A DNA stretch of 64,000 bases from Aureimonas sp. SK2. Lineage in GTDB: Bacteria > Pseudomonadota > Alphaproteobacteria > Rhizobiales > Rhizobiaceae. Numbering within the stretch: position 1 is the first letter of the stretch; each line of letters starts with the position of its first letter. Positions 10,456-12,564 of the stretch are shown in pieces. The translations under genes and the position numbers were made by a program. A model generated the notes under the pieces. The model was not told where the DNA came from. It made no database searches and saw nothing but the letters and a program-made list of their open reading frames with translations. The stretch lies in contig NZ_JAPZDS010000005.1 in NCBI RefSeq assembly GCF_029813115.1, positions 1 through 64,000 of the forward strand, read 5' to 3'.

Positions 10456-12564
10456 TCAATAGGGCGCGTCGACGGAGCCGAGATTGACGTAGACGCTCTT
10501 CACCTCCGTATGGGCGAGAAGCGCCGCGCGCCCGTTCTCGCGCCCGAGGCCCGACTGCTTGGCGCCGCCGAAGGGCAACTCGATCGGCGTGATGTTGTAG
10601 GTGTTGATCCAGGTCGTGCCCGCTTCCAGCCGGGCGACCACGCGGTGCGCCCGCGCGAGGTCGCAGGTGAAGACGCCCGCCGCCAGCCCGAAGGGCGTGT
10701 CGTTGGCGCGGCGTATCACCTCGTCCTCGTCGCGGAAGGAGAGCACCGTCATCACCGGCCCGAAGATCTCCTCGCGCACGATGCGCATGTCGTCGGTGCA
10801 GGCATCGAAGATCGTCGGCTGGACGAAGCAGCCCCTGGCGAGGTCTCCCGTCACGACGCGCTCGCCGCCGACGAGCACTCTGGCGCCTTCGCGCCGGCCC
10901 TCCTCGATATAGGAGAGGACCTTGCGCATGTGGCTTTCCGAGATCAGCGCGCCGACTTGGGTCGCGGGGTCCTTCGGGTCGCCCACCCGCATCGCGCGGG
11001 TGCGCGCCTCCAGCCTGGAGAGAAAGGCCTCCCGCACGTCCTCGTGCACGAAGACGCGCGTGCCGTTGGAGCAGACCTCGCCGGCCGAGTAGAAGTTGGC
11101 GAGCAGCGCGCCGCCGACCGCGTTGTCGAGATCGGCATCCGGGAAGACGATCAGCGGCGACTTGCCGCCGAGTTCCAGCGTCACCTGCTTCAAGGTGGAG
11201 CTGGCATCCGCCATCACCTTCTTGCCGGTGCCGACCTCGCCGGTCAGCGAGATCTTGGCGATGCCGGGATGGCGCGACAGGAGGCGCCCCGTCCGCCCGT
11301 CGCCCTGGACGACGTTGAAGACGCCGGCCGGCACCCCGCACTCGACCATCACCTCGGCGAGCTTGAGGGCACTTAGCGGCGTCAGCTCGGCGGGCTTGAA
11401 GATCACGGCATTGCCGGCGGCGAGCGCCGGGGCCGCCTTCCAGCAGGCGATCTGAATCGGATAGTTCCACGCGCCTATGCCTGCGACGACGCCGAGCGGC
11501 TCGCGCCGCGTATAGCCGAAGGCGCTGGGGCCAAGATCCACGTGCTCGCCCGAAAGGCTTGCCGCGAGCCCGGCGAAATACTCGATGCAGTCGGCGCCGG
11601 ACAGGACATCGACCGCCTCCGTCTCCTGGATCGGCTTGCCGGTGTCGCGCGTCTCCAGAAGGGCGAGTTCGGCGTTGCGCTCGCGCAGGCGCGCGGCGAC
11701 CTTCTGGAGAATGCGCCCGCGCTCGGCGCCGGTCATCGCGCCCCAGCCCCGCTGCGCCTCGTGCGCCAGTTCGACCGCCCGGTTCACCTCGGCCTCGCCG
11801 GCGATCGCGATCTCGGCCAGCACCTCGCCCGTTGCGGGATTGATCGTCGCGAAGGTCTCGGCGGCCGGGTCGAACGGCAGGTAGGCGCCGCCGACATGGC
11901 TGGTTAGGACGGGCGCGGCATCGCTCCGCCGCAGGCTCGGCGCGGGCTTGGGCTCGCGGGGCTTGGCGGCCGCGATCTCGCGGTCAGCGAAGCTCGTCGC
12001 GATGGCGCGGGCCGACAGGCTGTCGGTCTCGGCCACTTCCGACAGGGTGGAGCGCAGCCAGAGGCCGTCGATCACCGCGGCGATGGCGACGGAGATGCGG
12101 TGCGCGTCCTCGTCGCCGCACAGCGCCTTGAGGTCGTAGCGCAGGTTGGAGAGCATGCGCTTCTGGTAGGCCCGCTGTACGCGCTTGAGGCGCGCGGAGT
12201 GGAGCACCTGCCCCCAGAAGGCGAGCCAGACGGAACAGGTCCGCGCGTCGAACTCCTCCGGCGCGAGATTGGCGTCGATCACGGCCTGGATGCGCTCGCG
12301 CGGCCCTTCGGCGCGCTGGAGGCGCAGCTTCGCGCTGGTGGAGACCCGGCTCGCGAGATGACGCAGCGTCGCCTCGAGGAGACCGTCCTTGTCTCCGAAA
12401 TAGTGGGAGACGAGCGAGGGCACGACGCCGACACGCCCGGCGATCTCCGACAGGCTGGAGGCGGCGAAGCCCACATCGGCCAGCGCGTCGATCGTCGCCT
12501 CGATCAGTTGACGGCGGCGCTGGTCCTCGGCGCCGAATCGCGAAACACTGTCCATCCGAGCCAT
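10456..12564 (-). CDS. betB: Fused BetI repressor - BetB betaine-aldehyde dehydrogenase
   Basis: One 702-codon frame carries two proteins that are normally separate. Residues 1-195 are a TetR/BetI regulator: the helix-turn-helix spans about 18-60 ([18 protein letters not shown], then [18 protein letters not shown]) and the ligand-binding helices follow. Residues about 198-222 form an Ala/Pro/Lys-rich linker ([17 protein letters not shown]). Residues about 223-702 are betaine-aldehyde dehydrogenase, with the GAWNYPIQ cofactor segment, the catalytic glutamate in LELGGK, catalytic Cys498 (GEVCSNGT) and the EIFGPV motif. No in-frame ATG, GTG or TTG lies near the junction that could start a separate BetB. 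BetB makes glycine betaine from betaine aldehyde; BetI represses bet genes until choline is present. A missing stop through sequencing error cannot be fully excluded. Confidence 0.9.

Follow-up and report, generated by a model that had tools for sequence, protein, structure and literature searches.

TetR-type repressors bind DNA as dimers, and the Lac repressor and other looping repressors are tetrameric and act on paired operators. PutA is a trigger enzyme that carries a ribbon-helix-helix DNA-binding domain and controls its own pathway; to our knowledge, such fused repressor-enzymes are few. In known bet operons the genes for the repressor BetI and the betaine-aldehyde dehydrogenase BetB are separate, as the original prediction had stated and as is the case in the R. 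pomeroyi BetI paper, in the portion used here (PMC12442346), which also gives the published BetI box as ATTGACGCGTCAAT. For PaBADH, a relative of the BetB half described below, PMC3554688 reports a tetramer in solution. We found no BetI-BetB fusion described in the open-licence literature searched; the fusion is already present in sequence databases, unremarked, and is called betB in the one annotated copy examined.

We analysed a stretch of 64,000 nucleotides from Aureimonas sp. SK2, here called the window, in which positions 10456..12564 of the minus strand form a single stop-free ATG-to-stop frame of 702 codons, the betI-betB fusion gene. Its parts, all on the minus strand, are a BetI half (residues 1-197; 11974..12564) with a TetR DNA-binding domain (residues 20-65) and a BetI-type C-terminal domain (residues 88-197), a fast-evolving linker of about 25 residues (residues 198-222; 11899..11973) and a BetB half of the betaine-aldehyde dehydrogenase type (residues 223-702; 10459..11898). 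Pfam TetR_N covers residues 20-65 with 40.1 bits (gathering cut-off 24), the BetI-type TetR_C_6 residues 88-197 with 91.7 bits (gathering cut-off 27) and Aldedh residues 234-691 above its gathering score. Among the NCBIfam models the BetI half exceeds the cut-off of PRK00767 (185.1 bits, cut-off 118) and stays 5.6 bits below that of TIGR03384 (195.7 bits, cut-off 201.3), and the BetB half exceeds those of both betaine-aldehyde dehydrogenase equivalogs, PRK13252 (775.2 bits, cut-off 593) and TIGR01804 (670.2 bits, cut-off 668.6). In the alignment the enzyme half has C498, E464 and N367, which we take to be the catalytic residues, and solved betaine-aldehyde dehydrogenases (PaBADH 2wme and 6wsa among them) are 55-60% identical to it in the top rows. 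The uninterrupted BetI-linker-BetB frame that had been predicted is therefore borne out by the open frame, the Pfam and NCBIfam scores and the presence of C498; the predicted absence of an alternative start near the junction was confirmed for the window as well, the junction and linker holding no in-frame ATG, GTG or TTG. An AlphaFold model of the whole fusion (mean pLDDT 77.8, pTM 0.55, 21 sequences in the alignment) is poor in the enzyme half, with its top PDB matches at an rmsd of 17-19, and only its linker was used, which is of low confidence (low pLDDT at residues 205-215). From the domain and model scores, the fusion is predicted to combine a BetI-type TetR repressor and a betaine-aldehyde dehydrogenase in one protein. 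Searching the own genome with PF13977 gave four matches, two of them over the cut-off, i.e. the fusion (96.7 bits) and one other, much weaker TetR_C_6 protein (43 bits).

The fusion gene lies within a choline gene cluster. Directly downstream on the minus strand is betA, encoding choline dehydrogenase (8771..10441; TIGR01810, 830.5 bits, cut-off 732.1), and divergent from the fusion, on the plus strand, are the genes of a choline ABC transporter, i.e. choX for the binding protein (12902..13855; TIGR03414, 464.2 bits, cut-off 379.05), choW for the permease (13970..14824; TIGR03416, 413.9 bits, cut-off 363) and choV for the ATPase (14828..16030; TIGR03415, 544.6 bits, cut-off 483.75). Two open frames on the plus strand to the left of the bet cluster (6139-7551 and 7595-8599) have no NCBIfam match at 1e-10. 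Across the fused loci that we collected, betA is present nearby in 70 of 75, the exceptions being L041 and L044 (short contigs), L179, L128 and L167.

Fixation of the fusion in a clade, a check suggested with the original prediction, is nearly complete in the genus: 20 of 21 Aureimonas genomes, our own included and three of them single-contig assemblies, carry it in frame. The sole exception, G018, has a separate betB (L163) that is 60% identical, with betA beside it, and no BetI is found in the fetched 8 kb; this betB-betA pair represents another lineage, placed near Pseudomonas types on the BetB tree. In match tables evaluated at E up to 1e-150, with overlapping taxon samples, the fusion occurs in 16 of 397 genomes of the order sample (own included; two of the 16 with a decayed enzyme half), in 2 of 384 other genomes of the class sample, and in 2 of 348 genomes of the order of G773. 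By family the counts are 8/28 (f16), 3/3 (f45), 16/198 (f35) and 3/20 (f11), and it was sought and not found in the 15 genomes of family f27 and in 24 genomes from other genera of the own family. Among 80 collected loci, in-frame fusions include Ancylobacter, Faunimonas, Methylobrevis, Sphingomonas, Novosphingobium and Gluconacetobacter as well as metagenome-assembled genomes (MAGs) of Caulobacterales and Steroidobacteraceae; most fused loci belong to the Hyphomicrobiales, others to the Sphingomonadales, Caulobacterales, Acetobacteraceae and two gammaproteobacterial MAGs. A Komagataeibacter plasmid also carries a copy, the record of which names the gene just betB; with the fused repressor hidden under the betB name in this one annotated copy, fused genomes can look as if they had no betI. 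Our final set comprises 75 fused loci (70 distinct upstream regions) and 75 adjacent separate-gene loci (74 distinct). In two MAG copies (L059, L075) the frame ends inside the enzyme half, which may be real decay or sequence error; these two and L044, which is cut by a contig end, are counted among the 75 fused loci in the box counts.

The independent in-frame copies in 20 of 21 genus genomes and in other families rule out an assembly or sequencing error, or chance, as the source of the fusion. That a stop codon was removed artificially from the window is vanishingly improbable, the same frame being found throughout the genus and in other genera and no point being found in favour of such an artefact. 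The original prediction had named separate betI and betB genes at the same locus in close relatives as speaking against a genuine fusion. Such loci do occur in other families (f27, f50 and many others), but they likely show the ancestral state and not an error.

Between the divergent genes we identified two BetI-box-like dyads of 18 bp. Box 1 (ATTGAACGATCGATCGAT; 12600..12617, minus strand) is imperfect and lies 35 bases before the ATG of the fusion; box 2 (GTTGAATGTTCGTTCAAT; 12754..12771, minus strand) lies on the choX side, its centre 154 bp from that of box 1. Both palindromes had been predicted and are present, each one base longer than given. A scan of 12560-12910 for sigma-70-like promoters found none. 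In the separate-gene loci the box is a 14-bp form, ATTGAACGTTCAAT, reached at no fewer than 11 of 14 matches by 68 of 75 loci (shuffles 1.4), which has its length and outer bases in common with the R. pomeroyi box, as given in the portion of PMC12442346 used. The fused loci have an 18-bp form, ATTGAACGNNCGTTCAAT, reached by plain consensus at no fewer than 12 of 16 matches by 56 of 57 loci (shuffles 0.45). The two forms overlap: the 14-bp threshold of 11 matches is also passed by 39 of 57 fused loci, and the 18-bp threshold of 12 matches by 66 of 75 separate loci. Matrices learned from fused loci hold 25.5 bits at 18 bp versus 17.6 bits at 14 bp, those from separate loci 25.4 bits and 23.3 bits, respectively, the 18-bp matrix of the latter showing two overlapping half-matches around the 14-bp core. 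The matrix bits thus indicate that the fused boxes are single 18-bp dyads and the separate-gene boxes either a 14-bp dyad or overlapping 18-bp ones.

The number of boxes also differs. With the 18-bp matrix, which was learned from the same fused loci that it scored, all 75 fused loci have at least one box and 67 at least two when the threshold lets 2.5% of shuffled regions through (64 when it lets 1% through). Where choX is divergent, 57 of 58 distinct fused regions have two boxes, whereas the separate-gene loci mostly have one: of 34 such loci, two boxes are seen in 1 by the 14-bp matrix learned from separate-gene loci and in 5 by the 18-bp one. The latter five all belong to f27 (L121, L124-L127); their spacings of 175, 196, 269, 269 and 339 bp are few and look unphased. 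Since f27 loci with separate genes carry two boxes as well, a pair of boxes does not require the fusion, and this layout probably preceded the fusion or came with it rather than following it. In the own genome of 4.56 Mb, the 18-bp box with up to two mismatches gives ten strand matches corresponding to five sites (reversed-pattern control: two), those besides boxes 1 and 2 being C78:112906, C45:149599 and C78:106328. The first of these (L174, C78:112906-112923; GTTGAACGCTCGTTCAAC) is a perfect 18-bp box-like palindrome between two genes that do not resemble choline genes, and it is perhaps the site of another TetR regulator.

The spacing of the two boxes tends to change by about one helical turn, which the control distances do not clearly do. 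For the spacings of the two best boxes (37 distinct values from 64 loci), a scan of periods between 9 and 13 peaks at 11.2 bp (R = 0.42, p = 0.013), and there is no 10.5-bp periodicity among them (R 0.06). We also compared pairs of loci that are joined on the fused-protein tree by paths sharing no branch, at a distance of up to 0.6 (n = 23). Thirteen of these pairs differ by 0-2 bp and the others by 4, 10, 10, 11, 11, 12, 13, 14, 65 and 65 bp, with no difference of 5-9 bp. The mean cosine at 11 bp over the ten non-zero differences is 0.58, reached by none of 4000 jittered sets (in a second run p 0.0002 by jitter and 0.0036 versus uniform differences), compared with a weaker 0.40 at 10.5 bp. 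As controls, the distance from box 1 to the betI start is weakly positive (0.19, p 0.04), that from box 2 to the choX start gives -0.32 (p 0.89) and that from the betI to the choX start -0.19 (p 0.79). Dropping the distance limit gives 27 pairs and a mean cosine of 0.37 (p 0.006-0.011 by jitter, 0.03 versus uniform); at distances up to 0.6 it is 0.50 without Aureimonas, 0.64 without the Ancylobacter group and 0.51 without both, the last from four differences (p 0.02-0.06 by jitter, 0.07-0.14 versus uniform). Of the non-zero differences below 17, 7 of 8 fall at 10-14 versus 3 of 11 for the two control distances from a box to a gene (p = 0.015). Behind the phasing there are 10-13 non-zero differences, and it is significant in most but not all settings. 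We regard it as moderate evidence because we chose the period of 11, the limit of 0.6 and the 10-14 window after seeing the spacings. A protein that bridged two sites on a short loop could impose an 11-bp step of this kind.

The history of the fusion can be read from the trees, which omit duplicates (L021, L022, L023, L029, L101, L166, L169) and truncated copies (L044, L059, L075). On the BetI tree of 129 rows, one branch with support 100/92 separates the 54 fused from the 75 adjacent rows, a single change found in 100% of 200 bootstrap trees, with a tool warning of long branches, several of which are fused rows. The BetB tree (159 rows) also divides fused and unfused rows by one change, at weak branch support (46). 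Five free-standing BetBs (L050, L055, L074, L142, L150) lie on the fused side of this weakly supported tree, none with a BetI in its fetched locus, and a later loss of the repressor half is possible for them. The one branch on the BetI tree makes a single fusion followed by transfer or loss the simplest account. The nearest unfused BetIs are those of ten loci of f50 and f27 (L118-L127), in six of which the betI stop and the betB start share four bases, read in different frames, so that one small indel could fuse the genes. The f27 loci L121 and L124-L127, with a four-base overlap and two 18-bp boxes, likely represent the precursor state. A further trace lies in the linker: 16 of 75 fused loci, i.e. 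Ancylobacter relatives (f35; L024, L026, L105, L182-L191) and f45 (L111, L113, L114), have an in-frame ATG in the linker, preceded at 5-16 bases by GGA or AGG, that resembles the betB start of the sister loci. By its sequence this ATG may be a fossil betB start, or a working start giving free BetB beside the fusion; it is found in none of the 20 Aureimonas loci.

Both halves of the fusion are under purifying selection. Median dN/dS values from the 20 Aureimonas loci are lowest in the HTH part (0.11), intermediate in the BetI C-domain (0.24) and BetB (0.23) and highest in the linker (0.71); they are based on 164-189 of 190 pairs, those saturated at synonymous sites being discarded. Within the helix-turn-helix region, L51, H54, Y55 and F56 are invariant in 76 of 76 aligned rows, and 74 of these rows retain all three of C498, E464 and N367, the window being counted twice among the rows (as itself and as L001). 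Whether the regulator still works had been left to conjecture; a working repressor is likely, as suggested by the purifying selection on the BetI half and the retained operator-like boxes.

Two fused species of f16, G345 (L128/L166) and G418 (L167), have an enzyme half without Cys498, Asn367, Glu599 and Phe601, and in G418 also without Glu464 and Lys390, the residues being lost by substitutions and in-frame gaps. Nevertheless, these dead-enzyme fusions are still open frames of 680 and 686 codons. We found no betA in their fetched stretches (about 3 kb downstream); choXWV is divergent and kept, and so are two boxes, 109 and 111 bp apart. Between L128 and L167, dN/dS is 0.11 at 91% identity for BetI and 0.39 at 58% identity for the enzyme half, and a living pair (L106/L179) gives 0.05 for BetI and 0.07 for the enzyme half. 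Constraint on the dead half seems relaxed, yet dN/dS stays below 1, and unfinished decay is a possible reading; its near-full-length open frame also fits a scaffold role. With the enzyme dead, BetI constrained and boxes and choXWV retained in both species, the fusion seems to be kept for regulation, the protein there resembling a repressor with a pseudoenzyme body.

We favour a model in which the fusion is a bifunctional repressor-enzyme, the BetB tetramer making BetI bivalent and looping the betIB-choXWV control region, and we regard this as nearly an even call; DNA binding, choline as the effector, the oligomeric state of the fusion and the loop are all what we infer. A single ancestral frameshift would have joined betI to betB at the gene overlap, resulting in a protein whose BetI half would act as a choline-responsive repressor and whose BetB half would be a betaine-aldehyde dehydrogenase. 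As the BetB relative is tetrameric and TetR repressors are dimeric, a fused tetramer would present two DNA-binding dimers. It would grip box 1, at its own promoter (betIB-betA), and box 2, at the choXWV promoter, together, bending the intervening DNA into a short loop, of 154 bp here, that would repress choline oxidation and uptake jointly, and incoming choline would relieve repression on both sides. That BetB serves as an oligomerising scaffold looping two phased operators, and that this role outlives catalysis in two species, is a reading we put forward tentatively, with more doubt than for the model as a whole.

The main alternative holds that both halves work and are joined by a passive tether fixed by chance, with BetI dimers occupying the two boxes independently and repressing either promoter without a loop, so that the gain, if any, would be only a fixed 1:1 dosage of repressor and enzyme. 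The nearly neutral linker (dN/dS 0.71), the two boxes in f27 without a fusion, the five free BetBs on the fused side of the BetB tree and the relaxation of the dead enzyme halves (0.39 versus 0.07) all agree with it; against it, phased box spacing is unexpected under independent binding, and the dead enzyme half is still open over 680 and 686 codons in two species. We consider it possible, if somewhat doubtful. The long protein might also go unused, an internal linker start or proteolysis yielding separate BetI and BetB. The linker ATG preceded by GGA/AGG in 16 of 75 fused loci would allow this, as would an in-frame start with a Shine-Dalgarno-like 4-mer in 9 of 75, among them Aureimonas L019 (GTG). 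However, the junction in the window has no in-frame start, the combination of ATG and GGA/AGG is absent from all 20 Aureimonas loci, 17 of which do have an in-frame ATG, GTG or TTG (with a Shine-Dalgarno-like 4-mer only in L019), and the frame stays open across the clade, making separate products unlikely.

The original prediction had suggested that the fusion could give autoregulation by substrate flux or bring the enzyme to DNA, as in trigger enzymes such as PutA. In a trigger enzyme of this kind, occupancy or redox state of BetB (betaine aldehyde, NADH) would alter DNA binding and the operon would sense flux. The analogy with PutA and the physical linkage of the two parts speak for it, but no sequence evidence supports it, the linker is long and variable, and in two species the repressor persists although the enzyme is dead; we judge this mechanism very unlikely.

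Returning to the looping model, an evolutionary series is visible from overlapping genes through a fusion with a possible fossil start and a fusion without a start to a fusion with a dead enzyme, which makes it testable whether the oligomeric state of an enzyme was co-opted so that a dimeric repressor can loop DNA. If the loop is real, choline uptake (choXWV) and oxidation (betIB-betA) would be tied into one switch relieved by choline, and if the scaffold reading holds, the dead-enzyme protein would survive as a pure regulator of choline uptake in two species.

In comparison with described systems, the fusion shares with BetI of E. coli, S. meliloti and R. pomeroyi (BetI1) the TetR_N and TetR_C_6 domains, matches to the BetI models (that to TIGR03384 just under its cut-off), BetI-box-like palindromes and choXWV and betA as neighbours. 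It differs from them in that BetB is attached, the boxes are mostly of 18 bp instead of 14 bp, with overlapping forms, and there are usually two of them instead of one. With BetB enzymes such as PaBADH (2wme, 6wsa) it has in common a full-length enzyme with the catalytic residues, and it differs by the N-terminal repressor and by an enzyme half that is dead in two fused species. Like PutA, it combines DNA-binding and dehydrogenase parts in one protein that would control its own pathway; unlike the ribbon-helix-helix of PutA, its DNA-binding domain is TetR_N, and we see no sign of a redox switch. Unlike in the Lac repressor, the oligomerising part would be the enzyme and the loop is a proposed one; the likeness that we propose to the Lac repressor lies in two DNA-binding dimers per tetramer, paired operators and a spacing that changes in helical steps.
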